A stretch of DNA of 41,981 nt from Desulfocapsa sp. (GTDB lineage: Bacteria; Desulfobacterota; Desulfobulbia; Desulfobulbales; Desulfocapsaceae): assembly GCA_030145625.1 (NCBI GenBank), contig JAQYVF010000038.1, positions 1-41,981 of the forward strand, in the 5' to 3' direction. Below the pieces are notes generated by a model that ran no database searches, was not told the DNA's origin, and saw nothing but the letters and a program-made list of their open reading frames with translations. Positions 4,710 to 29,899 of the stretch are shown piece by piece. Within the stretch, counting starts at the first letter, position 1. Each line of letters begins with the position of its first letter. Both the position numbers and the translations under genes were made by a program.

Positions 4710-4751
4710 TTTTTTATCCTTTTCTGTCCCTAACAAGTTGTTGTCCAGTTT

Positions 4752-15614: not shown

Positions 15615-15622
15615 GAGCAGAG

Positions 15623-15874: not shown

Positions 15875-15933
15875 ACTCCAGTCTCCTGTAACATTGGGCC
15901 TGATAACGATCTGTAGCGGCTAGTGAGGGAAAA

Positions 15934-16257
15934 ATGAGTGAACAGCGTATTCCGGATATGGCATTCACCCGTACAATTGCCAGGGAGAATGGCAAAATAA
16001 AAAGCGGTTTGTGCAAATCCACCCGCTTTGAGGTGTACGGGGCCTGGCAATTTTCCCAACGTTTGGATGGGAAAAACTTTAGTGGTGACATGCCGGCCAG
16101 GAAGAGTGCCAGAAAGGAATTTTATAAGACCATGTTCCGCCTGCGGATTGATGGGAGGTGGTACATGCCTGGCGGGAGGAAGTACGTCTTTTTGACCTTG
16201 GAAGAAATTGCGAAGATGTTACTTCACTATTCTGGAGAAAATGAATGTGGAGAATAA
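15934..16257 (+). CDS. Hypothetical protein
   Basis: GAGGG precedes the ATG. The 107-residue product is basic and rich in aromatic residues; the C-terminal part (R-L-R-I-D-G-R-W-Y-M-P-G-G-R-K-Y-V-F-L-T) looks like paired beta strands followed by a helix. I recognise no family. It overlaps the next gene by 13 bases, so the two are probably an operon, and it lies on the plus strand just before the reversed island. Confidence 0.6.
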   Translation: MSEQRIPDMAFTRTIARENGKIKSGLCKSTRFEVYGAWQFSQRLDGKNFSGDMPARKSARKEFYKTMFRLRIDGRWYMPGGRKYVFLTLEEIAKMLLHYSGENECGE

Positions 16258-16472
16258 ACTGCGGTGAATGTGGCAAAACGAGTATTGCTGACCAATGGCT
16301 GGAGACGGCAATGGGACCACTTCCTGCCGGTCATTTGCAATGCCCGGAGTGCAAGGCGGGGATCAAGAAAAATATGCCAGCAATTAATCTGTCCGTTTTA
16401 TTGGGGGAGCCTCAGCCCGATTTCACAACAACAGGGGACAGACCCCGATTTCACTATTTCAAGTGGAAATGA
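16245..16472 (+). CDS. Small zinc-finger-like protein with REP-derived C-terminus
   Basis: The frame starting at 16245 has GGAG seven bases upstream and encodes C-G-E-C (6-9) and C-P-E-C (33-36), a four-cysteine zinc-ribbon pattern, so I prefer it over the overlapping frame at 16264. Of 75 residues, the last 14 or so (T-G-D-R-P-R-F-H-Y) are encoded by the REP-like element at 16429-16502. The insertion appears to have replaced the original end of the gene. Function unknown; DNA or RNA binding is possible. Confidence 0.55.
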   Translation: MWRINCGECGKTSIADQWLETAMGPLPAGHLQCPECKAGIKKNMPAINLSVLLGEPQPDFTTTGDRPRFHYFKWK

Positions 16473-16502
16473 TTGAGGGAAAACGTGGCCTGTCCCCTGT
16501 TG
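16429..16502. repeat. REPIN-like element (paired REP ends without transposase)
   Basis: CAACAGGGGACAG (16429-16441) and its exact complement (16490-16502) enclose 48 bases. Just inside lie ACCCCGATTT and AACGTGGC, the same inner sequences as the two ends of the RAYT elements (GGGGTCTGTCCCC side and GACCACGTTT side). It is therefore a miniature element with both REP ends, probably moved by the RAYT proteins nearby. Confidence 0.65.
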
Positions 16503-16780
16503 CATTTCTATTGCATTGCATTATTGTTGCATTAAAAAACACCTTTCAATTTGAAAATATCGGGGCTGTTGTAGTTCATCAAAGAGCCTGAAAAGATAGT
16601 AAAAACAATTTATTACACAGTGTTCCATCCATGTGACGTTAAGAATGAAATACATTTCTCATTTGTTGTTTTTCTACAAAATCAACATGTTGCCTAGAAG
16701 TACGCTTTAGCCGGATGAGCCTCATTTTTATTATACAGTTCCTTCAGTCACGAGTTTGCATCATGGTAGACCAGTTACTA
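16503..16780. other. Island left boundary, non-coding
   Basis: No gene is apparent. TTGCATT occurs at 16500-16506, 16511-16517 and 16527-16533 within 34 bases. From about 16730 the sequence resembles the downstream flank of the related gene at 27437 (the ATACAGTTC..TTCAGT stretch), so duplicated material starts here. The plus-strand phage genes end and the minus-strand island begins in this interval. Confidence 0.5.
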
Positions 16781-17443
16781 TTAATTTTCACACCTATCAG
16801 GTGGGCCGGCATTTTGTCGAACATTAGAACATAGGCCCTCACAGGTCTCATTGCTCCATTTGATTATATCCTGGACTGAACCACATTCAACAATTTTGGC
16901 ATTGTATTCATCAGTACAATCCTCATCGGGAAGACAGTGGCCCTCACATGTTTCATCGTCAATGAAATATTTATCAGAACCACCGCATTGAGCCAATAAC
17001 GTTGCTTTCTCATCTACACATAGAGCACATTGGCCAGTACATGAATTATCATCCCATGATAAAATTCTATCAGAGCCACCACATTCATCTATTTTTGCGG
17101 CATACTCTTGTTGACAATCCATATCGAAAAATGTGATATGTCCAGAATGACCTTGCTCTAGAGGACTTGGACAGTTTACGGGAGACGCCCAACTTTCCGC
17201 ATTATACGTCATTTTTGTCCATTCCCAATATGGAAACCATGTTATATCCATACATCCAGTAATAGTTGATATATATGCTTTTGTTATTTGTTTATATCGT
17301 CCATCCCAAGGGTGTGTGATTACATCACCAACTGAATAAGCAAAAACACTCTTCACCAACCCCAGCACAAAAAACACCACCAGCACCCCAATGATGATGA
17401 TCACCAGGCGGATCTTGAAGAATGATGGAATAAGGACAGCCAT
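16781..17443 (-). CDS. Secreted cysteine-module protein A (three modules)
   Basis: The 220-residue protein has a hydrophobic N-terminus (about 8-35, S-F-F-K-I-R-L-V-I-I-I-I-G) ending in S-V-F-A, a likely signal peptide or anchor. A unique region follows to about 105, then three copies of a four-cysteine module C-x10-C-x12/13-C-x3-C (about 109-209). Typical core residues are E-C-G-G-x-D and C-x-G-x-C. Residues 153-220 are nearly identical to the ends of the proteins at 27437 and 28262. GGAGGAAC precedes the ATG, and the ATG overlaps the stop of transposase copy 1 (TAATG). Disulfide-stabilised and extracytoplasmic is the likely state. No known family recognised. Confidence 0.7.
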   Translation of the reverse strand: MAVLIPSFFKIRLVIIIIGVLVVFFVLGLVKSVFAYSVGDVITHPWDGRYKQITKAYISTITGCMDITWFPYWEWTKMTYNAESWASPVNCPSPLEQGHSGHITFFDMDCQQEYAAKIDECGGSDRILSWDDNSCTGQCALCVDEKATLLAQCGGSDKYFIDDETCEGHCLPDEDCTDEYNAKIVECGSVQDIIKWSNETCEGLCSNVRQNAGPPDRCEN

Positions 17444-18204
17444 TAGAGTTCCTCCAACACAACAGAAGTAATAGGAAGTAATAGGAGACCCCGTTTAATC
17501 GTCGTTCTCCAGGCTCTTTGTTTTTTTCGTGGTCTGCCTGCTTTTCCGGGAGTTACCCGGCGGCCAAGCATGGCGGCTATTTCTTCTTTGAACCGTGGGT
17601 TGCCAAGGGCAAAATTTCCATTGGTGGCTTGACGGATCTGGTCAACGACTCCAGGCTCCAGCTCATGACGAAAAAGTTCCCGGTAGGCGGCCTGCCTTTC
17701 TTCACTGGTGCGGCCAAGACTCAGGTAGACCAAATGGTGGCTTAACAGGTCAGAGTTCTCGCCCTGTCCATTGCAACCGTAGCTTGACCAACGGTACTCA
17801 CCAGGGTGTGCCACCATATCTGCGCGGACAGGATTCAATTCGATATACCGTTGACAGGCGAGCAGATAGTCCTCCTGTTGGGCAATGCAGGAGCGAAAAT
17901 GCCCCTCCCAAAGTGTTCCGCTGCGCCGATAGGTGCGATTGATATATTGTTCATACCGTTGTCCTAAACGTTTCATTAGCAATCCGGCACTGTTCGCATC
18001 TCTCGGGGTCAAAAGAAGGTGGATATGGTTTGTCATCAACACATAGGCATGGATAGTACAACCCGTTTCACGGCTGTAATCATTCAACCAGTCTAGGTAA
18101 AAACAGTAATCCTCGTCAGAATAAAAACAGGATTGCCGATTATTTCCACGCTGGATCAGATGCAGGGGAACGCCGGGTATGATGATACGAGGTCGTCGGG
18201 GCAT
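17443..18204 (-). CDS. RAYT transposase copy 1, frameshifted C-terminus
   Basis: This Y1 (HUH) single-strand transposase of the REP-associated family has HIH at 60-62 and the catalytic tyrosine at Y120 in R-Y-I-E-L-N-P-V-R. It is nearly identical to copies 2 and 3, but its coding-strand A run has seven instead of eight A residues (near 17521). The final residues K-K-T-K-R-L-E-S-D-D are therefore replaced by a longer tail that runs to 17443 and into the next gene's start. The catalytic core is intact, so it may still work. N-terminal extension MHIV of the other copies is absent here. Confidence 0.85.
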   Translation of the reverse strand: MPRRPRIIIPGVPLHLIQRGNNRQSCFYSDEDYCFYLDWLNDYSRETGCTIHAYVLMTNHIHLLLTPRDANSAGLLMKRLGQRYEQYINRTYRRSGTLWEGHFRSCIAQQEDYLLACQRYIELNPVRADMVAHPGEYRWSSYGCNGQGENSDLLSHHLVYLSLGRTSEERQAAYRELFRHELEPGVVDQIRQATNGNFALGNPRFKEEIAAMLGRRVTPGKAGRPRKKQRAWRTTIKRGLLLLPITSVVLEEL

Positions 18205-18267
18205 AAATATATAATTACCGCTCTTTCACTTTACAGACTAACAGAAAAACGGGGTCTGTACCCTATT
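17481..18267 (-). mobile_element. RAYT element copy 1
   Basis: The element spans from AATAGGAGACCCCGTTTAAT downstream of the transposase to GGGGTCTGTACCCTATT upstream of it. Both ends have decayed from the perfect GGGGTCTGTCCCC form seen in copies 2 and 3, so this is probably the oldest copy. The upstream end supplies the TAG stop codon of the gene at 18263-18970. Confidence 0.65.
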
Positions 18268-18970
18268 GTTGGGGGATACGACAGATGGGTGGGCCGAGGT
18301 TTTGTGAGTTTATACAGTCTCCTGTGCAATTCTCAGAATTCCAGTTAACAATATTGCCCTCCCCGGCACACTCTTTTACCAAGGCAGCCCAGGCATCACC
18401 ACAGCACATACCTCCTTCTTCGTGTACATAGAAATCAATTGTTGCCTCATCTATTATATCCCCTTCATGCTTCGACATATTAGACGACCAGCCATATATG
18501 TAACCGACGTAACAAAAAGTCCCAAAGATGTCCTGGAGCACCAGGGACAGAGTGTGCTGCCCAGGCTCAAGAAGAGAAATATCAATTTCCAGCCAGAAAT
18601 TCAAAACTTCCCCTAGTTGTGTCCAGTCGCCTGAGGGATAAGGGGACTCCACATATTTAATGAACTGATACTCACCACCATCAACAGCATAAAGCAATAT
18701 TCCATGGGTACGATTAGTGGTCGGAGAATAGAAAGAAGGTCTATAATCTGTCTGGAGGCTACAATATTCTGTAGGGCCCTCTTTCCCTGTTGGAGTTTCA
18801 TCCTGGTCGAAAATAAATGTCCCATATACAGGAGTATTTTCAAATGTGCAAAACACTATTGACGTATCATGAGATGTCACAGTCACAGAACCAATTGCTG
18901 CATTGCCTGAACGAACTCCAGTCAAAGTAAAATATAAAAGAAAAAATAGAAAAACAGGAATCTGTTTCAT
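18263..18970 (-). CDS. Secreted protein with one cysteine module
   Basis: GGAGTG precedes the ATG. The 235-residue product has a signal peptide (about 1-25, ending G-N-A-A) and a beta-rich middle region whose E-P-G-Q-H-T-L-S-L-V motif recalls immunoglobulin-like or fibronectin-like strands. One C-x10-C-x13-C-x3-C module follows near residues 189-219, and the protein ends N-L-G-P-P-I-C. The N-G-P-P-x-C tail is shared with the other island proteins. Its stop codon lies in the end of RAYT element 1. Probably exported to the periplasm or cell surface; no enzyme motif seen. Confidence 0.7.
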   Translation of the reverse strand: MKQIPVFLFFLLYFTLTGVRSGNAAIGSVTVTSHDTSIVFCTFENTPVYGTFIFDQDETPTGKEGPTEYCSLQTDYRPSFYSPTTNRTHGILLYAVDGGEYQFIKYVESPYPSGDWTQLGEVLNFWLEIDISLLEPGQHTLSLVLQDIFGTFCYVGYIYGWSSNMSKHEGDIIDEATIDFYVHEEGGMCCGDAWAALVKECAGEGNIVNWNSENCTGDCINSQNLGPPICRIPQQ

Positions 18971-19003
18971 TCATACACTCCGTCTTGTAACGTATTAGAA
19001 AAC

Positions 19004-19796
19004 AATCGGGGTCAGACCACGTTTAATCGTCGCTCTCCAGCCTCTTTGTTTTTTTTCGTGGTCTGCCAGCTTTTCCGGGAGTTACCCGGCGGCCAAGCAT
19101 GGCGGCTATTTCTTCTTTGAACCGTGGGTTGCCAAGGGAAAAATTTCCATTGGTGGCTTGACGAATCTGGTCAACAACTCCAGGTTCCAGCTCATGACGA
19201 AAAAGTTCCCGGTAGGTGGCCTGCCTTTCTTCACTGGTTCGGCCAAGACTCAGGTAGACGGAATGGTGGCTTAACAGGTCAGAGTCCTCGCCCTGTCCAT
19301 TGCAACCGTAGCTTGACCAACGATACTCACCAGGGTGCGTCACCATATCTGCGCGGACAGGATTCAATTCGATGTACCGTTGACATGCGAGCAGATAGTC
19401 CTCCTGTTGGGCAATGCAGGAGCGAAAACGCCCTTCCCAAAGTGTCCCACTGCGCCGATAGGTGCGATTGATATATTGTACATACCGTTGTCCTAAACGT
19501 TTCATTAGCAATCCGGCACTGTTCGCATCTTTCGGGGTCAAAAGAAGGTGGATATGGTTTGTCATCAACACATAGGCATGGATAGCACAACCCGTTTCAC
19601 GGCTGTAATCATTCAACCAGTCTAGGTAAAAACAGTAATCCTCGTCAGAATAAAAACAGGATTGCCGATTATTTCCACGCTGGATCAGATGCAGGGGAAC
19701 TCCGGGTATGATGATACGAGGTCGTCGGGGCATAACTATATGCAAACCACTCTTTCACTTTATAGGCTACCTGAAAAACGGGGTCTGTCCCCGATT
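19004..19796 (-). mobile_element. RAYT element copy 2
   Basis: The ends AATCGGGG (19004-19011) and CCCCGATT (19789-19796) form an 8-bp terminal inverted repeat. Inside the right end is the palindrome CGGGGTCTGTCCCCG (19779-19793), and inside the left end GGTCAGACCACG. Transposase copy 2 fills the space between. The upstream end reads into the 3' end of the gene at 19760. Confidence 0.75.
19023..19745 (-). CDS. RAYT (REP-associated tyrosine) transposase copy 2
   Basis: The 240-residue Y1_Tnp protein (PF01797) moves single-stranded REP-flanked DNA. HUH motif HIH is at 64-66 and the nucleophile at Y124 (R-Y-I-E-L-N-P-V-R-A). The N-terminal M-P-R-R-P-R-I-I-I-P-G-V-P-x-H-L-I-Q-R-G-N-N is the classic RAYT opening. 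It ends R-L-E-S-D-D, the native C-terminus. It differs from copy 3 at only a handful of residues, so duplication is recent. Both ends of its element are present, so it is likely functional. Confidence 0.92.
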   Translation of the reverse strand: MHIVMPRRPRIIIPGVPLHLIQRGNNRQSCFYSDEDYCFYLDWLNDYSRETGCAIHAYVLMTNHIHLLLTPKDANSAGLLMKRLGQRYVQYINRTYRRSGTLWEGRFRSCIAQQEDYLLACQRYIELNPVRADMVTHPGEYRWSSYGCNGQGEDSDLLSHHSVYLSLGRTSEERQATYRELFRHELEPGVVDQIRQATNGNFSLGNPRFKEEIAAMLGRRVTPGKAGRPRKKTKRLESDD

Positions 19797-20299
19797 ATTG
19801 CTGACCATACAGTTTCACATTGCAATTGATCACAATAACTTTTTAAAGAAAGATATTGTGTTTTTATTCCTGTAGGATCATTTTCAGCCTCCTCTTCGCA
19901 TTTACATCTACTCTCGCATGTATCAGGATCAACAGAAGTAGCGTCCCAATATTCAGCACCACCACAGGCTTGTTGTTTTATTTCGTTTTCTTCCATACAA
20001 TCTGGGGGGAAAACTTCAGTGCAACCAGGACATGTTCCGCCTTCATATCGGCAGGCATTTTCGGAATCCATGATATAATAGACTTTTGTACCACTAGCCC
20101 AATAAGTATACCATTCACCTGGAATATGATAATCATCAGAACTTGCAAGGAAATCAACATCACTGGTGACTCTCATAAGATGTTCATTGTTATACACTTC
20201 TATTATCCATCCATTAGCATCTGGACAATCACCAATATCAGAAGCAAAGATTGGGGAAGAAAAAAGAGAAAGAAATATGAAAAATGATAAAAACTTCAT
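19760..20299 (-). CDS. Secreted protein with one cysteine module, 3' end altered by RAYT element
   Basis: The 179-residue product has a clear signal peptide (1-19, ending I-F-A-S), a Cys-containing middle region (C-R-Y-E-G-G-T-C-P-G-C) and one module of the form C-x10-C-x15-C-x3-C (about 110-141). The last 13 residues (I-I-G-D-R-P-R-F-S-G-S-L) are encoded by the RAYT element 2 end, which also supplies the stop. The original C-terminus is therefore lost or extended. It lacks the N-G-P-P-C tail of its relatives, perhaps removed by that insertion. No strong ribosome site is seen before the ATG. Confidence 0.65.
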   Translation of the reverse strand: MKFLSFFIFLSLFSSPIFASDIGDCPDANGWIIEVYNNEHLMRVTSDVDFLASSDDYHIPGEWYTYWASGTKVYYIMDSENACRYEGGTCPGCTEVFPPDCMEENEIKQQACGGAEYWDATSVDPDTCESRCKCEEEAENDPTGIKTQYLSLKSYCDQLQCETVWSAIIGDRPRFSGSL

Positions 20300-20323
20300 T
20301 ACAAATCCAAAAGTAGAATAGGA

Positions 20324-20358
20324 GGGAGAATAGGGGACAGTCTGTCCCCTATTCTCCC
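20324..20358. repeat. 35-bp perfect palindrome (solo REP pair)
   Basis: GGGAGAATAGGGGACAG (20324-20340), a single T, and the exact complement (20342-20358) form an uninterrupted palindrome. The core AATAGGGGACAG..CTGTCCCCTATT is two RAYT-type ends joined with no DNA between them. It may be an excision scar, a minimal REP doublet or a transcription stop between the flanking minus-strand genes. Confidence 0.8.
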
Positions 20359-20423
20359 GATCGGCTGAGTGGGCTGTGCAGTGGCCATGAGCCGTAAAAA
20401 TAGGCGGCTGAGGGAAAGTTCAA

Positions 20424-20878
20424 CCGCCTGGGGGTGTTTGGGGGGTTGGTGGTAATTAATTGTTGCATTGTGGATCATCAGGTGGACCAAAGTTTTTTAG
20501 CTCGTCCACCCAAACGTATTTTTCACTTCCTTCAGCGCAATAAACACTACTGCAAGCTAGACATGGATGATTCGAGCACATGTCGCCTGAATCGGTTGCA
20601 GTGTTTGCGCAATTGAAATAATCAACAACATACTTATAACCATCCACTATTTCTGTAGTTTGATGCCAGCCGTCTAATACACCACACGATTCTTCCAACA
20701 CCCATACAGCTGACGCAGAGGTACATAAATTCAAGCTTAAAAAACTTGCCAGTATCAGGATTAAAATTTTCTTTTTCATAATAGTCTACCTGCAACATGT
20801 TTACTCAATTACTCTTTTCCCATATTTTTCTTCTCAGTCAAGGCGACTAAAGAATGAACTCTAGCCGCCTGGGGGTGT
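20424..20878. repeat. Direct repeats flanking the 107-residue gene
   Basis: CCGCCTGGGGGTGT occurs at 20424-20437 and 20865-20878. Both copies are preceded by a GGCGRCTnA..CCGCC imperfect hairpin and followed by (T/A)TGGGG. The 441-bp segment between equivalent points holds exactly the gene at 20456-20779, so this looks like a cassette boundary or two copies of a small hairpin repeat. Confidence 0.5.
20456..20779 (-). CDS. Small secreted cysteine-rich protein
   Basis: The 107-residue product has a textbook signal peptide (M-K-K-K-I-L-I-L-I-L-A-S, cleavage after A-S-A near residue 24). The mature part carries eight cysteines, including C-x5-C-x2-C-x4-C. It ends N-F-G-P-P-D-D-P-Q-C, the tail motif shared with other island proteins, but does not contain the complete four-cysteine module. 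AGGT lies upstream of the ATG. Probably periplasmic or extracellular; function unknown. Confidence 0.65.
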   Translation of the reverse strand: MKKKILILILASFLSLNLCTSASAVWVLEESCGVLDGWHQTTEIVDGYKYVVDYFNCANTATDSGDMCSNHPCLACSSVYCAEGSEKYVWVDELKNFGPPDDPQCNN

Positions 20879-20892
20879 ATGGGGTTAGCAAA

Positions 20893-21684
20893 AATGGGGT
20901 CAGACCACGTTTAATCGTCGCTCTCCAGCCTCTTTGTTTTTTTTCGTGGTCTGCCTGCTTTTCCGGGAGTTACCCGGCGGCCAAGCATGGCGGCTATTTC
21001 TTCTTTGAACCGTGGGTTGCCAAGGGCAAAATTTCCGTTGGTGGCTTGGCGGATCTGGTCAACGACTCCAGGCTCCAGCTCATGACGAAAAAGTTCCCGG
21101 TAGGCGGCCTGCCTTTCTTCATTGGTTTGGCCAAGACTCAGGTAGACGGAATGGTGGCTTAACAGGTCAGAGTTCTCACCCTGTCCATTGCAACCGTAGC
21201 TTGACCAACGGTACTCACCAGGGTGTGCCACCATATCTGCGCGGACAGGATTCAATTCGATGTACCGTTGACAGGCGAGCAGATAGTCCTCCTGTTGGGC
21301 AATGCAGGAGCGAAAACGCCCCTCCCAAAGTGTCCCGCTGCGCCGATAGGTGCGGTTGATATATTGTACATACCGTTGTCCTAAACGTTTCATTAGCATT
21401 CCGACACTGTTCGCATCTGCCGGGGTCAAAAGAAGGTGGACATGGTTTGTCATCAACACATAGGCATGTATAGAACAGCCAGTTTCACGGCTGTACTCAT
21501 TCAACCAATCCAGGTAAAAACAGTAATCCTCGTCAGAATAAAAACAGGATTGCCGATTATTTCCACGCTGGATCAGATGCAGCGGAACGCCGGGTATAAT
21601 GATACGAGGTCGTCGGGGCATAACTATATGCAAACCACTCTTTCACTTTATAGGCTACCTGAAAAACGGGGTCTGTCCCCGATT
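20893..21684 (-). mobile_element. RAYT element copy 3
   Basis: It runs from AATGGGGTCAGACCACG (from 20893) to GGGGTCTGTCCCCGATT (to 21684). The roughly 60 bases upstream of the transposase are identical to those of copy 2, including the CGGGGTCTGTCCCCG palindrome. The upstream end overlaps the 3' end of the TPR gene and supplies its TAG stop. Confidence 0.75.
20911..21633 (-). CDS. RAYT transposase copy 3
   Basis: This is a 240-residue Y1 transposase almost identical to copy 2. HUH motif reads HVH at 64-66 instead of HIH, still valid, and the catalytic tyrosine is Y124. Small differences, such as N-E-Y-S-R-E-T-G-C-S and P-A-D-A-N-S-V-G-M, make it slightly diverged from copies 1 and 2. It has the native R-L-E-S-D-D C-terminus and both REP ends, so it should be functional. 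Confidence 0.92.
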   Translation of the reverse strand: MHIVMPRRPRIIIPGVPLHLIQRGNNRQSCFYSDEDYCFYLDWLNEYSRETGCSIHAYVLMTNHVHLLLTPADANSVGMLMKRLGQRYVQYINRTYRRSGTLWEGRFRSCIAQQEDYLLACQRYIELNPVRADMVAHPGEYRWSSYGCNGQGENSDLLSHHSVYLSLGQTNEERQAAYRELFRHELEPGVVDQIRQATNGNFALGNPRFKEEIAAMLGRRVTPGKAGRPRKKTKRLESDD

Positions 21685-22065
21685 GTCCCCACTCTGCTTA
21701 TCAAGGGTAGATAATTCATCAATTTTATTCTTTATATACACAGCATCACTTTTTTCAATATCAGTTGTTTGGGGACAATACTCCAATGCTTCCTTGTATG
21801 TTAATAATGCAAGATCAACAAAATGCTTATCTTCATAAATCGAAGCCAATGAGATATGTGCTGGGTAGTTTTTTGGGTACTTGCCTATTGCTTGATTTAA
21901 AATAGCTGTAGCTAGCTCAGTATTTTCTTTATTAGTGTCTAACAAAGTTAGAGAATAGCCATACAAAGCTTTGGATTGTTCTGCTACGTAATAATTTAAA
22001 ATAAAAAGCGTTGCCATTACACCTACTAACAAACCTAACGATACATATAAAATATTTTTCTTCAT
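21655..22065 (-). CDS. TPR membrane protein downstream of Rhs, candidate immunity protein
   Basis: I start at ATG 22065 (MKKNILYVSLG), 7 bases after the Rhs stop; upstream codons in this frame lie inside the rhs gene. The 136-residue product has an N-terminal membrane anchor (about 5-27) and two TPR-like helix pairs (A-T-A-I-L-N-Q-A-I-G-K-Y-P and A-L-L-T-Y-K-E-A-L-E-Y-C-P). The tight spacing implies translational coupling with Rhs, the classic place for an immunity protein. Rhs immunity proteins are usually unrelated to TPR proteins, so this is a position-based guess. The last residues (G-D-N-R-G-Q-T-P-F-F-R) come from the RAYT element 3 end. Confidence 0.6.
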   Translation of the reverse strand: MKKNILYVSLGLLVGVMATLFILNYYVAEQSKALYGYSLTLLDTNKENTELATAILNQAIGKYPKNYPAHISLASIYEDKHFVDLALLTYKEALEYCPQTTDIEKSDAVYIKNKIDELSTLDKQSGDNRGQTPFFR

Positions 22066-22072
22066 TAGTAAT

Positions 22073-25000
22073 TTATGGTTTTGGTCTGGGTGATGGTTTA
22101 GGGCCTGGATATGGACTTTTAATACATGCATAAGCCCATTTAGAGTATAAATCTGGGTCCTTTGCCCGGACACAATTCATAATAGCTTCAGATAGAAAAC
22201 TTGCGTCATATTTATCCATAAAATAACACTGATCTTCCGCTGTATGCCCTATTTCTTTCCTACACTTTTCTTTGAGCTTCTGAATTTTCCGTCCTAAATA
22301 TAAACATTTTCCGATATCCAGAAGGCTTTCTCCAGTTGGGTCAAAAAAGTTGATCGGATTTCCGCCCACATACGCATACAGATTGATACCGCCTTGCAAT
22401 CCAATAGGATCAGCAGAGATATACCGCCCGGTAGCAGGATCATAATACCTATTCCAATTATAATGCAACCCAGTCTCCCCATCAAAATACTGTCCCGGAA
22501 ACCGTATATTACTAACAACACTTTCCGTTCCCACCTGAGCCTCGCCAAAGGGCAGATAAGCCGCCTGCCAAACAATATTGCCTAGCCCATCAATTAATTG
22601 CTGGGGGGTACCAAGGTGATCATTGATATAATAGTACAAGCCAGCATTGTTTTCATACTCTCTGAGCGCCAACGGCTCACCGTCAAGATAAAAATATTCT
22701 CTTAAAATCGTCCCACCTGTGCTGGTTTCTGAAATCAATTGATTATTCAGATCATAGTGGTAATGGATGGTAACCCCACCAGTGGTTTTACGCACCCTTC
22801 TGTTGCTGGAATCATACGCATAGGTGGCAAGAACAGCACTGTTCTTATCCACCTGGATGAGTCTGTTTAACGCATCATAGATGAAGGTGTGAAGGCCGTC
22901 GGAGGTAATATTTCCATTGTCATCATAGGCATAAATCTTCGGCGTGTTGCCGGTGAAACTCGCCAGCTGATTAGTATTTATATTATAGGTGTAGGCAATG
23001 GACTCATCGGCTACCGTTAAGGGTGGGAGATTGGAAATTTCTGTTACATGCCCATCACCGTCTCGTGTATAGGTGGAGTCAAAGAGTCCGGCCTGGATTC
23101 GGGAAACATTATAGCGCTCATCAACTGTCTTGGTTAGGGTTGTCGAGCCTGCTATGTCTCCATTTGTTAGGGGCCCAAACGGTTTTCGTTGTATGGTAGT
23201 CATTAAGGATATTGGTGTAGCATCCTCAAGCGTTACGGCAGTAATCTGACCATCGAGGTCACGACTATAGCTAACAGCGCTCCCTCCGGTACCAGGATAC
23301 GTCATGCTGTCCAACTGACCAGTAGTAGAATCCCACAAATAGCTGGTTGTATAAGTCGTTGTCCCAAGAATACGTATCTCGTTTGTGAGTTGTCCCAAAG
23401 AGTTATAGGAAAAGGAGCGGCTCCCCTCTTCATCGGTTACCAAACCAAGTTTTCCTATCCCGTTAGGACCATTCAGGTCATATTGCAAACTGATGACCTG
23501 CTCGGTCGCTCCCATAGGGTATTTTTGATTTGCAAGTCTATTGAGGGCGTCATACTCGAAGCTTATCGTTTGGCCTTTTGCATCAACAAAGGAAATCAAA
23601 TTATCAGCTTTGTCATAGTCATATGTGGTTAGGCCCGTGTCAGGGGCATCCCGCTCTTGCCTCCTGCCAAAATCATCATAGACAAAATTGGTCATTTCGC
23701 CATCAGCAGCCATGACCCATAGCAGATTGTCCTTTTTATCATAGTGATAAAGGATGATACTGTCGAGATCGGGTACATGATCAGGATAAACAGTTGTGTC
23801 AACAATGTCCTTTTCTATGACATTTTTCAAACGATTAAGATTGTCATACGCATATATCGTTTTCAGGAAACCGGAGGAATTTATTGTTTCTACCAGGTTG
23901 CCCATCTTGTCGTAGTCAGCAATACTCTCATCAATACGCCCGGCCACTAGCTCTGGATACACTGTTGTTGTCCGACGAACGGCATCAGGATTTTCACTCA
24001 CCAGATTCTCATCTATATATTCGGTATCCAGGTAACGAGTAAGGCTGCTGTTCTCTTCATCCCAGACCTCTGTTCTTTCGACCCTTCCCTCGCTATCATA
24101 AAAATATTTAATAGAATTTTGCAGATTATCACTGATTGTTTGCAACTGCCCATCAGCGGAATAAACATAAGTTATAACATAATTTCCTCCACTCCCCGGC
24201 GAGGTGCTTGTTTTAAGCTTTCCGTCATCATAATAGGTGTGGGTAGTAACGATTCCTCCGGTTGTAGACGACTCAAGCCGACCGTTATCTGCATTATAGA
24301 CACGGGTTGTCACCAAGCCATTTGCCGCAGTGATTGTCTCTGCTTCACCGTAGAAGTTATAGTTACTATAGGTTGTCACATGTCCAAGAGCATTTGTAAT
24401 CGTAAACAACTGGCCTTGATTAAGGCCCTGACTACTGTCATTGGGATAATAGGAAAAGTCTACCGTATCATCACCATCAACAATATCGTCTCTTGGTCCG
24501 TTAATTGTGGTTATCCGGCCATCACTGTTGCGAGGAGTACTGGTTGTTCTGGTGATTGCGGTACCTTGATCAAATCCATCTTCTTTTTTACTGAGGAGAT
24601 TACCATTGCTATCATATGTCAATGTGACAACACTGTCTCCAGTGGAAGCTATTGAAGAGGTAATGATTTTTTTAAGAAGATTATCTGCACTGAAATATTT
24701 ATCAGTGGTGCGCCAATCAACTGTCCCTAGCGCTTCAGTAATGGTATCTTTGCGCAAGCCTTCTGCATCATAGGTGGTGCCATAGGTATATTCTGTGACA
24801 ACAGTCTCAAGGTCTGCGGCATCTTTACTTACGGTCTTGAGAATCACCCGCCCACGATCATCATAGACGTAAGAAGTATCAGAACTGGTACTGCATGAAC
24901 TACACCCAACCCCCTCAATGGATTCAACCATCACAATCCCGTTGACTATTTCGAGGGTATAAGTTGTTAACACTCCTAAACTATTTGTAATCTCTCTCTT

Positions 25001-25876
25001 ATTGTAAGCTGTATAAGCAATGGTAACTTTGTTTTGTTCGCTGGCACTGTCCCCTTTGACTGAACTGGTCACCCGGTCGAGGACATCATATCCCACCGTG
25101 AGGATAATTTTCCCTTCTTCATCCTCAATACCAGTGAGATTGTGTGTATCAAGGGGGTCGCCATAACTATAATTGATGCTCGTTCCATCTGGCTTGGTGA
25201 CAGTTATCAAGTTGATATTACTGTCATAAAGATAGGAGGTGATTTTGGATGTGCCATTAAAGGATGATGTGACCGAATCTAATTGTCCACTTTGGTCATT
25301 AAAATCAAACTCCAGACTTCTCCCAAAATTATTTTCAATCTTGAGATCGACGCCGGTATAAGTGTAAGTGAGACTATTACCATTCTTGTCAGTGACACTC
25401 TTAAGGAGCTTGTTGCTGTCAATGCCGCCAAAGAGCTTGACTGTTCCGTTTGGCTCCTTAAGCTGATAGTCATCCGCCACCTGTGTAATAACCCGTTCCT
25501 TGCCGGTTTCATTGATCCATTGCCCTGAGCCGTTGTCAATAAAATGAACAGCACGGCCACCCGGTTGGGCAAGGATGATATCAGGAGAACCAATGGTTAA
25601 CTTCTCACTAAACCCACCTGTCCAGCCATAACCAAGGGGACCGAACTCGTCACTTTGGCTGTTATATGTCCGGGTAAAGGTGAGATCTATCCCTGGGCTT
25701 GCTAGCTTCACATCGGTGGCAGCAAGGTATTTATTGCCTGTTCCGAAGTTTATCTGGTGGTCCCCGATATAAGGTTGTGTTCCTGCTATGGCGTTATACG
25801 CACAGAGACAGAAACCAGCCCAAAGAAGAAGTGAGATGAATGAATATCGGCTTATGGCTTTTTTCACGTTTTTCAT
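22073..25876 (-). CDS. Secreted Rhs/YD-repeat protein with variable C-terminal tip
   Basis: I start at ATG 25876 (MKNVKKAISRYSF); an upstream TTG would add 15 residues before the signal peptide. The 1267-residue protein has a signal peptide (1-31), an N-terminal G-D-H-Q-I-N-F-G-T-G-N-K-Y domain (DUF6531-like), many YD repeats forming a beta cocoon, and the Rhs core ending D-P-I-G-L-Q-G-G-I-N-L-Y-A-Y..N-P-I-N-F-F-D-P-T-G. The 85 residues after that are a unique tip with five cysteines and a Pro/Lys-rich end. Rhs tips are often toxins; I recognise no toxin fold here. Sec export rather than a PAAR/T6SS link is indicated. Confidence 0.9.
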   Translation of the reverse strand: MKNVKKAISRYSFISLLLWAGFCLCAYNAIAGTQPYIGDHQINFGTGNKYLAATDVKLASPGIDLTFTRTYNSQSDEFGPLGYGWTGGFSEKLTIGSPDIILAQPGGRAVHFIDNGSGQWINETGKERVITQVADDYQLKEPNGTVKLFGGIDSNKLLKSVTDKNGNSLTYTYTGVDLKIENNFGRSLEFDFNDQSGQLDSVTSSFNGTSKITSYLYDSNINLITVTKPDGTSINYSYGDPLDTHNLTGIEDEEGKIILTVGYDVLDRVTSSVKGDSASEQNKVTIAYTAYNKREITNSLGVLTTYTLEIVNGIVMVESIEGVGCSSCSTSSDTSYVYDDRGRVILKTVSKDAADLETVVTEYTYGTTYDAEGLRKDTITEALGTVDWRTTDKYFSADNLLKKIITSSIASTGDSVVTLTYDSNGNLLSKKEDGFDQGTAITRTTSTPRNSDGRITTINGPRDDIVDGDDTVDFSYYPNDSSQGLNQGQLFTITNALGHVTTYSNYNFYGEAETITAANGLVTTRVYNADNGRLESSTTGGIVTTHTYYDDGKLKTSTSPGSGGNYVITYVYSADGQLQTISDNLQNSIKYFYDSEGRVERTEVWDEENSSLTRYLDTEYIDENLVSENPDAVRRTTTVYPELVAGRIDESIADYDKMGNLVETINSSGFLKTIYAYDNLNRLKNVIEKDIVDTTVYPDHVPDLDSIILYHYDKKDNLLWVMAADGEMTNFVYDDFGRRQERDAPDTGLTTYDYDKADNLISFVDAKGQTISFEYDALNRLANQKYPMGATEQVISLQYDLNGPNGIGKLGLVTDEEGSRSFSYNSLGQLTNEIRILGTTTYTTSYLWDSTTGQLDSMTYPGTGGSAVSYSRDLDGQITAVTLEDATPISLMTTIQRKPFGPLTNGDIAGSTTLTKTVDERYNVSRIQAGLFDSTYTRDGDGHVTEISNLPPLTVADESIAYTYNINTNQLASFTGNTPKIYAYDDNGNITSDGLHTFIYDALNRLIQVDKNSAVLATYAYDSSNRRVRKTTGGVTIHYHYDLNNQLISETSTGGTILREYFYLDGEPLALREYENNAGLYYYINDHLGTPQQLIDGLGNIVWQAAYLPFGEAQVGTESVVSNIRFPGQYFDGETGLHYNWNRYYDPATGRYISADPIGLQGGINLYAYVGGNPINFFDPTGESLLDIGKCLYLGRKIQKLKEKCRKEIGHTAEDQCYFMDKYDASFLSEAIMNCVRAKDPDLYSKWAYACIKSPYPGPKPSPRPKP

Positions 25877-25963
25877 CGTATTACCAAGGTCGTCTGTTGA
25901 ATGATAAATGTACTTCAGCAAGTGGCTGATTTATTTCATAAAATAAAATCAAGTATCTTGATA

Positions 25964-26770
25964 TCAGCTATCTATTATTAAAAAATATTTGAGCAATCTC
26001 TGTTTGGGATTTGAGTCTGCATCTCCAGGATCGGTTCCTTCAGCAACCTCTAGGCCATCGAGGTAACCATCATTATCGGAATCAGAATCATGTAAATTAT
26101 CGAGGCTGTCTCCATCAATATCTGCATTCCAGTCATTTCCCCAGAGAGTACGCTCTGCACCGTCATCCAATCCATCTGCATCGGTATCAGCCAGGTTGGG
26201 ATCGGTAAAATAGACTTCAAGCTCCTCACCATCCTGGATACCATCACCATCAGTGTCAACCCTAATGACAGAGAAGTTCCAAACTGGTCCTTCCGCTATC
26301 AAGCCGCCCTGATCTTTAGCGACGATCTTCCAAGAGTAGGATGTATTGGCAACAAGATCGGTTACGTTCATTGTTGTTTCAGTAATATCCTGCAGTAAGA
26401 GAGCGGGATCTGTGGTTTCATCTAAATAAAGGTCATATGTGACGATATCCCACGTATTAGGGTCTCCTCCGGTCCAAAACAGTTCCGCCCCATAATAAAC
26501 ATCCATATCTACGGCACCATCTACAGGAAACGGATTGGAAGGAATATATGGATTAAGATTGACGGTAATAGAGCTTTTAACGCTTCTATTACCCAGGGAA
26601 TCGTATTGGTAGGTAATGGCCAGGCCATTGTCGTAGGTGGCTTTTTTTACACGATGTTTACTGTCATACTGGTAAGTAACTGCACCTGCCAAGGTAGGAC
26701 CCGCTAAAAAGGCCAAGCACAATAGAAACAGAGAAACATATTTACAAGATAGTACTCTTGTTCTCTTCAT
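25964..26770 (-). CDS. Secreted YD-repeat, fibronectin-III and TSP3-repeat protein
   Basis: ATG 26770 (MKRTRVLSCK) begins a signal peptide of about 28 residues; a GTG four codons upstream is possible. The 268-residue protein has two YD repeats (Y-Q-Y-D-S-K-H-R, Y-Q-Y-D-S-L-G-N-R), a fibronectin type III domain (about 72-170) and calcium-binding thrombospondin type 3 repeats (D-T-D-G-D-G-I-Q-D-G, D-T-D-A-D-G-L-D-D-G, D-S-D-N-D-G-Y-L-D-G). It lies 87 bp before the Rhs gene on the same strand. A surface-exposed, calcium-stabilised partner of the Rhs protein is the likely role, inferred from shared YD repeats and position. Confidence 0.8.
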   Translation of the reverse strand: MKRTRVLSCKYVSLFLLCLAFLAGPTLAGAVTYQYDSKHRVKKATYDNGLAITYQYDSLGNRSVKSSITVNLNPYIPSNPFPVDGAVDMDVYYGAELFWTGGDPNTWDIVTYDLYLDETTDPALLLQDITETTMNVTDLVANTSYSWKIVAKDQGGLIAEGPVWNFSVIRVDTDGDGIQDGEELEVYFTDPNLADTDADGLDDGAERTLWGNDWNADIDGDSLDNLHDSDSDNDGYLDGLEVAEGTDPGDADSNPKQRLLKYFLIIDS

Positions 26771-26915
26771 CTCTCTTCTCACTCCCGAAAAGATTTTATG
26801 TATATACGACTCAAACCTACTAATACCAGTCAGGTTTATTCAAATAATTAGATAATGGGTGAATCGTCACCTTGAGAAAACGTTGTTGCCTAGTTTTCAA
26901 GGGGAATTATTTATC

Positions 26916-27269
26916 TTATTGAGCAACCGCAAAGTAATTAGGGACAAGAGAGTCGCCAAAAGTAGGTAAATCAGAACAGGTGTAGCTGTCGGTTATATAT
27001 TTTACAACCACCGATTGACTATTTTCAAAAGCAGTTTTCGCCAACCCATACCATTGCAGACAAACTACTGCATCGATACCACCCCATTCTTCGTCCTGTG
27101 TGTTGCAAAGCAATGTAGCACTAGGAGTGGCTGTCCATGAGCCTTGTATATATAAAGCTCCGCTACTATATAATGTTATATTGTTAATTTCCCCTGAACA
27201 CCATATAGTTCCTGCTTGTGCACTTGGAACAACAAAAAACATTAACAGAACCAGGATAATTTTCTTCAT
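26916..27269 (-). CDS. Small secreted protein
   Basis: The start at 27269 (MKKIILVLLMFF) has GGAG six bases upstream; an ATG four codons earlier is less well placed. The 117-residue product has a signal peptide (cleavage after A-Q-A near residue 19) and a small beta-rich mature domain with four cysteines. It lacks the four-cysteine module and the N-G-P-P tail. No known family. It belongs to the same minus-strand run of secreted proteins. Confidence 0.6.
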   Translation of the reverse strand: MKKIILVLLMFFVVPSAQAGTIWCSGEINNITLYSSGALYIQGSWTATPSATLLCNTQDEEWGGIDAVVCLQWYGLAKTAFENSQSVVVKYITDSYTCSDLPTFGDSLVPNYFAVAQ

Positions 27270-27436
27270 TTTTCTCTCCATTTTTGTTTTTATTTACATC
27301 ACTTAAATGAATATCACGGGAACACAATACAATTGCCAATGGTATTGTGACCGCAGACCCAATTATTGCCATCATTATCATTTTAATTATACAGTTCTTT
27401 CAGTATCGAGTTTGCAACATGGTAGGCCAGTTACTG

Positions 27437-28192
27437 TTAATTCTCACATGTTGGTGGACCGGCATTTTGTGGGACATAGGAACAAAGGCCCTCACAGGTC
27501 TCATTGCTCCATTTGATTATGTCCTGAACTGAACCACACTCTACAATCTTGGCATTGTATTCATCATTACAATCCTCATCAGGAAGACAGTGGCCCTCAC
27601 ATGTCTCTTCATCAATGAAATATTTGTCAGCCCCACCACATTCCATAATTTTAAGAAGTTTTTCTTCTATACAAGGAGGACAAGAAGCGGGTAATTCAGT
27701 ACCACTCGGCCCATCATATGTATATCCGCTTGTATCCGCTACACGTTCATAGTGAGTGTAAGAATCATTAGGAATCCAGTCCCCGTTTACATTTGCATAC
27801 AGGACTATAAGACCACGTCTAATATAATGCGGACCTGACCCTTCGTCAGGATAGTGTTGTAGTTCTTTGACCATACGCCCTACATAGTAGGCATCGTCAT
27901 GGTGAAAGCCTGTTGTAAGATAATTTGTTGTTGAACTATCTGCGGTGTAGCTAGTGTTACTTTCTAAATAAAATATACAATCTCTATCAGCAAAAAGAGC
28001 GGCAAAGACTTGAACCGGAGAAACAAAAAATAAAAATATAAATATAAATATTTTACCCTTTGCCATACGCTTGAAAAAGGCGATCCCGACAACGACACCC
28101 AGGACGATTCCGAGGATAGGAAGTCCGGCAGTAAGAGCGGTGGTCAACTGACCTGTGATTTCGGTTACTGCACCTGCATAATCTACAACCAT
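27437..28192 (-). CDS. Secreted cysteine-module protein B with coat-like N-terminus
   Basis: The 251-residue ORF has two parts. Residues 1-45 (V-V-D-Y-A-G-A-V-T-E-I-T..L-P-I-L-G-I-V-L-G-V..F-F-K-R-M-A-K-G) resemble filamentous-phage major coat proteins: amphipathic start, one membrane helix, basic end. An internal Met (residue 44) begins what looks like a signal peptide (M-A-K-G-K-I-F-I-F-I-F-L-F-F..Q-V-F-A). After a unique middle region there are two C-x10-C-x12/13-C-x3-C modules, and residues 185-251 are nearly identical to the end of proteins A and C. Either one protein with two membrane helices or two products are made. A one-base change near 28063 would separate them. Confidence 0.6.
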   Translation of the reverse strand: MVVDYAGAVTEITGQLTTALTAGLPILGIVLGVVVGIAFFKRMAKGKIFIFIFLFFVSPVQVFAALFADRDCIFYLESNTSYTADSSTTNYLTTGFHHDDAYYVGRMVKELQHYPDEGSGPHYIRRGLIVLYANVNGDWIPNDSYTHYERVADTSGYTYDGPSGTELPASCPPCIEEKLLKIMECGGADKYFIDEETCEGHCLPDEDCNDEYNAKIVECGSVQDIIKWSNETCEGLCSYVPQNAGPPTCEN

Positions 28193-28206
28193 GATATAAA
28201 ATCTTT

Positions 28207-28250
28207 ATAAAAGAATAGGGGACAGACCATAAAAGAATAGGGGACAGACC
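28207..28250. repeat. 22-bp tandem duplication of a REP-type end
   Basis: A 22-base unit ending AATAGGGGACAGACC occurs twice head to tail (28207-28228 and 28229-28250), followed by ACGTTTACTCG. It matches the transposase-downstream end of the RAYT elements (GGTCAGACCACGTTTAATCG), but no transposase is present. It lies between the genes at 27437 and 28262 and is probably the scar of an element end. Confidence 0.75.
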
Positions 28251-28261
28251 ACGTTTACTCG

Positions 28262-29008
28262 TTACTGGTAATTTTCACACCTATCAGGTGGACCAGCATT
28301 TTGTGGAACATAAGAACATAAGCCCTCACAGGTCTCATTGCTCCATTTGATTATGTCCTGAACTAAACCACATTCTACAATTTTGGCATTGTATTCATCA
28401 GTACAATCATCATCGGGAAGACAATGGCCTTCACATGTTTCTCCATCAATGAAATATTTATCAGGACCGTCGCATTCTTGTTCGAGAGCTTGCCTTGCTT
28501 CCTGACATGTGCAAGTTCCATCACATTCTATTTCATCCCAATCGACATTTTCTTCGCCACCACATTCTTCTATAATTTGCTGGCGTGTTAAATCACAACA
28601 AGATGAAGCATAAGAATTTCTTCCAACACCTCTTGGGTCATTTACTAGCCAACGTGATTGATTGTTCAAGTAATATCCTTGGTCATGCCATTCACGATTT
28701 TCATAATAAACTGACTTTATTGTACCAATGTAAAAGGTGCACTCTTGATATTTATAACCACATTCATATTCACGAGAAAACTCTCCGGTTTCATCATTAT
28801 AGATAACCTCTCCTGTACCTATGCAATCCTGCCATGTATTAAAAGATGTTCCAGTTGCATAAATATTTTCATATATAAAGTGACATTCACCTGGCCATCC
28901 TTCAGCAAAAACATCCTTGACGGAACCCAAAAACGAAAACACCACCAGCAATCCAAGTACGATTAGCAGCAAGTGGAGTTTAAAAAATGATGAATCCGGA
29001 AGAACCAT
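28262..29008 (-). CDS. Secreted cysteine-module protein C (three modules)
   Basis: The 248-residue protein is the first gene of the reverse-strand island, with GAAGGAAT before the ATG. Its N-terminus (S-F-F-K-L-H-L-L-L-I-V-L-G-L-L-V-V-F, about 7-34) closely matches that of protein A, including the V-K-x-V-F-A cleavage region. A unique Tyr-rich region (35-130) is followed by three modules (C-x10-C-x12/13-C-x3-C, starting near 137, 167 and 202). Residues 179-246 are the shared C-terminal block ending N-A-G-P-P-D-R-C-E-N. Predicted extracytoplasmic and disulfide-bonded. No known family recognised. Confidence 0.7.
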   Translation of the reverse strand: MVLPDSSFFKLHLLLIVLGLLVVFSFLGSVKDVFAEGWPGECHFIYENIYATGTSFNTWQDCIGTGEVIYNDETGEFSREYECGYKYQECTFYIGTIKSVYYENREWHDQGYYLNNQSRWLVNDPRGVGRNSYASSCCDLTRQQIIEECGGEENVDWDEIECDGTCTCQEARQALEQECDGPDKYFIDGETCEGHCLPDDDCTDEYNAKIVECGLVQDIIKWSNETCEGLCSYVPQNAGPPDRCENYQ

Positions 29009-29668
29009 AAAAATTCCTTCAATTTAAACAAAATAGCAGGTTGGCTGCATTGAAGTTGCAACCTATCTGATTATTATAACATCCTAGTTAACACCCTTTG
29101 ATCGCTCAGAATTCTTTCTTTATTTTGAGCCAAAAATGAATCGCCATTCATCTAACCACAATCAGATTTCATTTGCAATAGGTAAATATACCTATTTTTA
29201 GCCTTAATTCTAAAAAAAATAAGCCAATAGAGGATAACAAACCACGGTTCACTGGAAAGTTGTCTTCACCAGGCCTCGTTCGCAGTTGCCGGGAGGTTTC
29301 TGTGTTATCAAGCGCTTCGGCTAATTGACAACCACCCCGACACCTTCCTTTTTAAGTAGCTTTATTTCAAGAGGTTACTACGAGCACCTACAGAAGATAA
29401 AAAACAAGCACTCCTTTATTTTATACTTCTTTCCTCTATGACCATTCCCGTGGCAGTCGGAATCCACCTTTTGCCAGTCTCTTTTTGAAGCCTAAGAAAC
29501 CATTTCAACAACAATCAGCAACTATCCTCCACAAGTAAAACTCTTCCCCAGGAGTTTCTATTCCCCAGGAGAATCTCCTCTGCAAGAGAAACTCTTCCCC
29601 AGGATACAACCCTCTTTTTTTTCTTTTCACGAACGCTCATACTCTCCTCATCATCAAAGGAGAAATGT
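29009..29668. other. Island right boundary and divergent control region
   Basis: These 660 bases separate the minus-strand island from the plus-strand head genes; both transcription units must start here. I see an 8-bp inverted repeat AATAGGTA/TACCTATT (29177-29184, 29189-29196) before the island genes. On the plus strand there is an exact TTGACA (29335-29340) with only a weak -10 match after it. AAACTCTTCCCCAGGA occurs twice (29538-29553 and 29589-29604), with a related TTCCCCAGGA between (29561-29570). No convincing gene. A late promoter for the head genes would have to lie here or read through the island. Confidence 0.45.
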
Positions 29669-29899
29669 ATGGCAAATGCAATCGAGCTGAGTACAGCGGT
29701 AAAAAACAGAGATGCTTGGGTAGCTGCCAGTGTGGCAGTTGCTTCCGGGAAATCGTATAAGATTGGCCAGCGGGCATTGACCCGTGCTGATGCTGCAGAA
29801 ATCATCCGGATGATCGACTACTGGCAGGCCTTGGTTGACAGGTTATCCAGGACCGTTGCTGGTATGCGTTGCAGGCAGGCGGTGCCCCTTGATAACTAA
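29669..29899 (+). CDS. Head-tail connector, gpW family
   Basis: The 76-residue protein follows AAGGAG. It shows the gpW pattern: an N-terminal helix, A-S-G-K-S-Y-K-I-G-Q-R-A-L-T-R-A-D and a second helix A-A-E-I-I-R-M-I-D-Y-W. In lambda, gpW (68 residues) stabilises packaged DNA and joins the portal to FII. It directly precedes the portal gene as in lambda. In lambda, W directly follows the terminase gene; here about 14 kb separates them. Confidence 0.8.
   Translation: MANAIELSTAVKNRDAWVAASVAVASGKSYKIGQRALTRADAAEIIRMIDYWQALVDRLSRTVAGMRCRQAVPLDN

Follow-up and report, generated by a model that had tools for sequence, protein, structure and literature searches.

Filamentous phages (inoviruses) bind their hosts through the attachment protein pIII, whose receptor is typically a pilus or a Tol-type receptor, and orphan C-terminal tips of Rhs and contact-dependent inhibition (CDI) proteins occur as arrays of variable modules near one Rhs gene. 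How exported Rhs/YD proteins pick their target cell is, to our knowledge, an open question. Bacterial teneurin-like proteins carry variable adhesion domains within the same protein and have immunity genes downstream, according to the available part of one report (PMC13018210), and the available text of an account of secreted Rhs/YD-repeat polymorphic toxins (PMC3482391) contains none of the terms 'inovirus', 'filamentous phage' and 'pIII'. Here we analyse a stretch of 41,981 nucleotides from Desulfocapsa sp. (contig JAQYVF010000038.1; the whole stretch is called the window), in which a prophage carries the gene of an exported-type Rhs protein together with seven small open reading frames (ORFs), O1 to O7. 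Five of these contain a four-cysteine (four-Cys) module that recurs in inovirus pIII-like proteins, and five end in a short motif, here called the tag, that recurs before related Rhs genes.

The likeness to inovirus pIII (from phages with a Zot-type pI) consists of four-Cys repeats that follow a variable N-terminal part and, in O1 and O7, of the signal peptide PSFFKIRL..GLVKxxFA; the window proteins differ in that they have no linker, no C-terminal GLF..GGS domain, no membrane anchor and no inovirus operon around them, and end in the tag. With the secreted Rhs/YD polymorphic toxins, including the bacterial teneurin-like proteins, the locus shares an export-type start, DUF6531, a YD shell, an RHS core, a variable tip and a small downstream gene, whereas the N-terminal part is here a separate, multiplied and tagged gene. 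Unlike the orphan Rhs/CDI tips, the arrayed genes encode exported-type N-terminal partners that lie before and after Rhs. Toxin and filamentous phage use one recognition route in the case of colicins and g3p at TolA, as described in the available part of PMC4339652; there a receptor is shared, whereas in the window it is sequence modules of putative function that are shared. The variant described here, an exported Rhs with partners partly built from filamentous-phage attachment modules, is real, recurrent and outside the family libraries searched, and its pIII-like module and tag suggest that phage recognition parts have been re-employed to aim a secreted Rhs protein. No account of such Rhs partners, or of pIII parts with Rhs, was found among the listed matches in the open-licence literature.

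Four-cysteine modules and inovirus pIII

The small ORFs are as follows; E values of O1 to O3, O6 and O7 are those of a hidden Markov model (HMM) built from pIII sequences only.

16781-17443, minus strand: O1, pIII-type signal peptide (PSFFKIRL..GLVKSVFA), variable part, three modules, tag NAGPPDRC (E 5.4e-21)
18263-18970, minus strand: O2, exported-type, one module, tag NLGPPIC (E 5.4e-9)
19760-20299, minus strand: O3, exported-type, one divergent module, untagged (E 3.6e-4)
20456-20779, minus strand: O4, 107 residues, exported-type, no module, tag NFGPPDDPQC
26916-27281, minus strand: O5, 121 residues, exported-type, four Cys, neither module nor tag
27437-28192, minus strand: O6, coat-like segment running in frame into a signal peptide, variable part, two modules, tag NAGPPTC (E 3e-11)
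28058-28192, minus strand: inovirus coat-protein-like segment at the start of O6 (PF05356 Phage_Coat_B, E 1.4e-4; phrog_7106, E 0.0029)
28262-29008, minus strand: O7, pIII-type signal peptide (SSFFKLHL..GSVKDVFA), variable part, three modules, tag NAGPPDRC (E 2.3e-13)

A first-pass annotation of this DNA had reported ten copies of the pattern C-x10-C-x12-15-C-x3-C, and all ten were found at the positions it gave, in five minus-strand ORFs (three in O1, one each in O2 and O3, two in O6 and three in O7). When the window was scanned in six frames with the looser C-x9-11-C-x11-16-C-x3-C, 12 of the 14 matches were these same copies (two with a CC start being counted double), and the other two, at 36102 and 39177, lie antisense to phage genes and are unrelated. 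The description as a repeat roughly 30 residues long, in proteins that look exported and without a family, likewise stood: no family in Pfam, PHROGs or NCBIfam matched the module, the NCBIfam run being made without O4 and O5. Neither Pfam nor PHROGs gave O5 a family with a useful score. The end motif N-[A/L/F]-G-P-P was present in four of the five module proteins (O1, O2, O6 and O7), in keeping with the claim that most of them have it. That all five carry export signals was borne out in part, by hydrophobic N-termini judged by eye and an N-terminal helix in the O7 model; O6 starts differently, with the coat-like segment first. What found no support is the view of simply a new surface module of unknown kin, since the same repeat occurs in inovirus pIII-like proteins and the C-terminus is the tag of Rhs partners.

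AlphaFold models of whole O7 and of the modules alone agreed on a common shape of three helix-plus-hairpin units, with a mean predicted local distance difference test (pLDDT) score of 80 for the module-only model; the whole-O7 model has the same elements, and much of its variable part lies below 50. A sequence search of the PDB with the module profile gave no match up to E 1. Fold searches gave no match for the whole O7 model (best E 0.82 in the PDB and 0.20 in BFVD), and the best E for the module-only model against the PDB was 3.4. VIA-align reached a Z of at most 3.6 for whole O7, in rows that cover mainly the signal helix and barely test the modules, and a Z of 2.2 in a single row for the module-only model; neither comparison excludes any fold.

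A profile made from four window proteins matched nine of 193 related genomes, the window's own included. In six of the eight others (G040, G044, G050, G142, G150 and G186) the match lies inside an inovirus operon composed of small coat genes, a long exported-type Cys-module protein with a C-terminal anchor, a small pVI-like protein and Zot/pI, joined in some cases by a secretin, Rep and a tyrosine integrase. The G157 match is an Rhs locus, and the one in G131 (E 0.009) sits among housekeeping genes and was taken as chance. With a single-module profile, 12 of 257 genomes of the order gave matches. The context was an inovirus in eight (G040, G044, G050, G112, G128, G142, G186 and G209) and an Rhs locus with exported-type proteins in three (G000, which is the window genome, G195 and G250); in the twelfth, G237, the contig ends inside a protein with a pIII-type signal peptide. 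Zot was confirmed by Pfam in G040, G050, G112, G044, G142, G150, G209 and G128, and more weakly in G186 (E 8.6e-8); a second copy in G142 (L023) is interrupted by the contig end. The pVI-like protein of G209 matches PHROG minor head proteins (E 1.2e-12), and the G040 inovirus is also present as an IMG/VR contig of 8,832 bases. From its place in the operon, its signal peptide and its anchor we take the long Cys-module protein of these inoviruses to be pIII; Pfam and PHROGs gave weak, coiled-coil-type or stray matches to it and nothing else.

The likeness also holds in the reverse direction. The pIII-only HMM was built from 15 pIII segments, seeds that were themselves found via the window proteins and of which two are poor (G040_35 and G150_157) and two are duplicates from G142. 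Among 335 ORFs (51 from the window and 284 from 60 Rhs regions) it recovered nine Rhs neighbours, namely all five window module proteins (E 5.4e-21 to 3.6e-4), three from G250 and one from G195, and the best of the remaining 326 had an E of 0.12. In pairwise comparisons within small sets, the G050 pIII aligned with O1 across signal peptide and modules (E 2e-12). The O2 module is identical to a module of the G186 pIII at 20 of 30 residues, and the first 45 residues of the G150 pIII and of O1, which span the signal peptides, are 53% identical. The pIII-type signal peptide PSFFKIRL..FA is found in O1 and O7, and O2, O3 and O6 have other N-termini. Seven 170-residue pieces from pIII C-termini, where the virion anchor lies, gave no tblastn match in the window at E <= 0.01, the window ORFs stopping at the tag.

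Zot, pVI, secretin and Rep gave no match in the window, where the only trace of an inovirus gene is the coat-like remnant in O6. This segment of 45 residues scores 22.3 bits with Phage_Coat_B, under the cut-off of 23.5, and L024_4995 matches it best (E 3.7e-5) among 1,836 ORFs, taken from inovirus loci and a few others. No stop codon separates it from the exported-type protein, so that O6 is either an in-frame fusion or a gene that begins at an internal Met; the protein's own signal peptide probably starts at that Met.

Wider searches added few relatives. Scans of viral contigs with O7 and with profile A5 confirmed none, and a scan of viral contigs with the pIII alignment A7 returned one contig, the G040 inovirus itself. 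Phage and plasmid records searched with O7 gave nothing up to E 0.1, O2 matched its own genome alone among 93 genomes of the family, and public genome contigs scanned with profile A5 yielded the G250 contig alone.

The tag and the proposed partners of exported-type Rhs proteins

The Rhs gene and its direct neighbours in the window are:

22073-25921, minus strand: exported-type Rhs/YD-repeat protein of the HxINFxTGNK class (DUF6531, E 1.6e-16; RHS_repeat, E 3.5e-40; RHS, E 8.1e-12)
21655-22065, minus strand: TPR-like protein whose gene immediately follows Rhs, hydrophobic segment at the N-terminus (TPR matches all under their cut-offs)
25964-26782, minus strand: small YD-repeat and TSP3 protein (TSP3_bac, E 2.8e-8; RHS_repeat, E 1.3e-6)

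The Rhs protein has 1282 residues and its core match stops at residue 1197, which leaves a variable C-terminal tip of about 85 residues. DUF6531 was found in 61 of 242 genomes, at 89 places. Upstream DNA, about 5 kb unless the contig was too short, was taken for 60 of the 88 places outside the window, mostly the best scoring, and the G157 place (L028) had been obtained separately beforehand. These loci divide into 35 with a long Rhs N-terminus and 25 with a short one, 17 of the latter forming the HxINFxTGNK subclass and eight being of other kinds. The subclass was defined after the locus output had been seen and takes in one HGIHF member (L092), and the regular expression for the tag was widened from the motif of the first-pass annotation after the first loci had been viewed. 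The window Rhs, which starts ..GDHQINFGTGNKY, is a member.

In 13 of the 17 subclass loci an upstream ORF ends in N-x-G-(1-6)-C, and in a fourteenth (L082) the ORF runs a few residues beyond SNGPPVC; in L076 and L077 another ORF lies nearer to Rhs than the tagged one does. Tagged upstream ORFs were found in none of the eight other short loci and none of the 35 long ones, and none of 142 background ORFs of the same regions has such an end. In the window, O1, O2, O4, O6 and O7 carry the N-x-G-..-C tag, O4 even though it has no module.

The tag motif also stands in frame before the Rhs domain in nine of the 60 loci. Clear fused cases are L068, L074 (KNLGRQCKANTLFGNPINVATGNKY, with A for V in L074), L067 and L069, in all of which the tag is internal and the Rhs shell begins after it with GNPIN/GEPIN..TGN; the matches in L096 and L122 are probably chance hits of a loose pattern. 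The partner of the split locus L090 aligns with the fused L074 at 36% identity over 214 residues, through the tag (E 8e-37), and comparable pairs are L076 with L074 (E 7e-30) and L082 with L068 (E 8e-33). To judge from these alignments, the split partners of L076, L090 and L082 and the fused ones of L068 and L074 are a single family. L082 carries a four-Cys module between its partner-family domain and its end. Searched for in 395 genomes evenly drawn from the phylum, a draw that held few genomes of the order, this partner family (A9) had one match, in G142. Three small ORFs ahead of Rhs in G157 (L028, 6130-7591) have a variant of the tag at their ends, D-P/T-G-K-x-C-P. The third is the one that the four-protein profile search had picked in this genome, and by eye it looks similar to O2.

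A layout like that of the window was found in G250, an uncultured Desulfobulbaceae known from the public contig CAMYOP010000003.1, which also carries a phage-type integrase. Three tagged ORFs, all with modules, precede Rhs there and two tagged ORFs follow it. One of the latter, L158:3647-4159, ends in NSGPPDNC and four further residues; it resembles the G044 pIII in the mature N-domain, with a score of 80 where none of 200 shuffles exceeded 52 (z 9.3). In L083, from G050, the likeness to the pIII of its own genome lies mainly in a WPDGPPPxC stretch (score 71 against at most 66, z 6.9). These two likenesses make it seem that pIII parts have been captured more than once. The expectation that relatives of the module proteins would have Rhs and RAYT neighbours elsewhere came true for Rhs (G250 and G195); inspection by eye showed no RAYT genes there, and the stretches examined contain no HUH-type motif.

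A 22-bp sequence is identical after O4 (20409-20430, minus strand) and after two orphan G250 partners (L158, 2913-2934 and 3516-3537), and it has five sites with up to two mismatches in the 257 genomes. Its use as a cassette recombination site was considered and rejected: attC boxes were absent by eye, and the G138 site shares a longer stretch, which we take to be an insertion-sequence end. The 22-bp sequence is probably an insertion-sequence remnant.

O1, O6 and O7 have a constant end and a variable front: their 3' ends are 88-91% identical in DNA over 204-268 bases, in O1 and O6 continuing about 59 bases beyond the stop codon, and their first parts differ. The ratio of nonsynonymous to synonymous substitution (dN/dS) is 0.16, 0.24 and 0.18 over the last 78-81 aligned codons in the comparisons among O1, O6 and O7, and a G250 pair compared over 88 codons has a ratio of 0.27, which puts the module-tag part under purifying selection in the window and G250 loci.

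Proposed targeting and its alternatives

The evolutionary kinship of the module, the tag and the O1 and O7 signal peptides with pIII and with Rhs partners is well supported by sequence. What these proteins do is a separate matter, and we give about an even chance to the whole reading, in which pIII-derived recognition parts have come to serve a secreted Rhs protein as exchangeable partners at its N-terminus. The island that holds these genes would then be an Rhs locus on a prophage, equipped with a stock of N-terminal partners that each have an export-type N-terminus, a variable part and, O3 excepted, the tag at the end. Several partners would have taken the four-Cys repeat from inovirus pIII without the C-terminal virion anchor, and O1 and O7 the signal peptide as well. 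Partner and Rhs would both be exported, and the tag may dock the partner in trans at the N-terminal mouth of the YD shell, the position of the linker in the fused forms. The pIII-derived part might bind a surface structure of a related cell, whereby the Rhs protein would be aimed at particular strains and the set of partners would represent a choice of targets. The Rhs tip would be toxic, and the TPR-like gene downstream, by position only, is a candidate for immunity.

We put forward more tentatively, at somewhat below an even chance, that Desulfobulbales have mobile elements with an Rhs weapon in split form, whose N-terminal aiming subunits are separate, multiplied and exchangeable; some of these would have been captured from a filamentous-phage attachment protein, with phage host-range modules turned into targeting modules of an antibacterial secreted Rhs protein. 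If the partners are modular and partly phage-derived, a partner would itself indicate the probable target, and recognition modules could be drawn from inoviruses, for whose attachment proteins no family model was useful here. Kin and context are also given to a repeat that lies outside the three family libraries searched.

Several observations weigh against recruitment of pIII parts as Rhs partners. Three of the 17 subclass loci (L084, L086 and L092) have no upstream tag, O3 ends without one, and only three genomes combine the module with Rhs. No four-Cys module clearly fused in frame to Rhs was found; the fused L099 looks module-like by eye and has a BLAST E of 8.6e-4 in a set of 35 sequences, and the HMM search did not return it at any E up to 10. 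The window's own genome has no Zot match, so there is no donor inovirus at hand. The mature N-terminal parts of O1, O6 and O7 showed no convincing likeness to nine pIII N-domains in a shuffle test (best z 3.8), and profile comparison of pIII N-domains with the window N-parts found no match (probability about 0.5%). As a control, four pairs of true pIII N-domains also scored about 0, and this domain is therefore too variable for the shuffle test.

The tag could instead be a C-terminal sorting signal of Rhs-linked proteins, serving surface attachment or a secretion route, with no docking on the Rhs shell. It would fit that picture as a short, conserved, one-Cys C-terminal motif on otherwise unrelated exported-type proteins; yet in the fused L068, L074, L067 and L069 the motif is internal and the GNPIN/GEPIN..TGN shell start follows it, and we regard a sorting signal as unlikely. 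Immunity conferred by the pIII N-domain is known for Ff phages, and anchor-less pIII-like proteins that occupy the host receptor or a Tol-type entry complex could block filamentous phages, so that the prophage would protect its host by superinfection exclusion. Pieces of pIII without an anchor have the form expected of such decoys, both elements carry further anti-phage genes (PD-Lambda-1, TIR and AbiP-like genes in the window; IetA and a partial IetS in G250), and colicin N and g3p compete with TolB on TolA, according to the available part of PMC4339652. A decoy, however, requires neither Rhs nor a tag, fused Rhs proteins have the tag inside, as a linker, and most tagged proteins of the class show no pIII likeness in our tests and yet occupy the same place before Rhs; we consider exclusion unlikely.

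Functionless debris is a further alternative, in which fragments of an integrated inovirus were duplicated beside Rhs by RAYT/REP and insertion-sequence activity. The coat-like remnant fused to O6, the three near-identical RAYT genes, the REP-like repeats and the insertion-sequence-like 22-bp remnant after O4 all agree with it, as does the failure to find Zot, secretin, Rep, pVI or a pIII C-terminus in the window. It sits poorly with the dN/dS of 0.16-0.27 in the module/tag region of two loci, with six open exported-type ORFs and with the similar layout of G250, and we judge it quite improbable. The module might, lastly, be a general surface or periplasmic repeat, as the first-pass annotation had it, in which case phage and Rhs proteins would be just two among its many users. 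It has no name in any family model and small Cys repeats may spread readily, but in the 12 of 257 genomes with the module its context is pIII or Rhs in all except the one contig-end case, and this alternative appears quite unlikely.

The prophage and its other genes

The window is a tailed prophage that begins with tRNA-Pro at 5-81, followed by an integrase (207-1241) and replication genes. The genes that flank the array of partners or are interleaved with it are:

13671-15614, plus strand: GpA, the prophage's large terminase subunit, to the left of the island
17443-18204, minus strand: RAYT (Y1 transposase), copy 1 (Y1_Tnp, E 1.2e-11)
19023-19745, minus strand: RAYT, copy 2, near-identical to the other copies
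20911-21633, minus strand: RAYT, copy 3, near-identical to the other copies
29669-29899, plus strand: head-tail adaptor (DUF6148), to the right of the island
29835-31415: portal gene, after the head-tail adaptor, with prohead protease, capsid and tail genes further on

The module proteins sit on a cargo island of 13 kb between the terminase and head-tail adaptor genes, on the strand opposite to both. At about 0.39-0.47 its G+C content is lower than that of the head genes on its flanks (0.53-0.58); the left prophage arm is low as well. Read along the minus strand, the order is O7, O6, O5, the YD/TSP3 protein, Rhs, the TPR-like protein, RAYT, O4, O3, RAYT, O2, RAYT and O1. The three RAYT copies, which are interleaved with partner genes, are 96-97% identical across a reference stretch of 300 bases, and REP-like GGGGACAGACC repeats occupy intergenic spaces of the array. 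RAYT copies and REP-like repeats may have helped to multiply the partners. A search of 15600-29900 with Rfam gave a single match, to an S15 leader, far under the cut-off.

A YD-repeat protein lies upstream of Rhs in seven of the 17 subclass loci, as detected by regular expression, and five of these seven have a TSP3-type motif like the window protein at 25964-26782. On another contig of the window's genome (L063, contig C95), a second exported-type Rhs protein of 1634 residues is followed by a small YD-repeat protein; no tagged partner was seen by eye in the stretch examined.

Defence-type genes occupy the left end of the prophage, namely an AbiP-like protein (1530-2651, E 1.8e-8), a TIR protein (3903-4736) and PD-Lambda-1 (5016-6575, E 5.3e-153). 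The G250 contig carries IetA (E 1.7e-74) and a partial IetS-like gene (E 1.1e-7) in L158, 1-2072.

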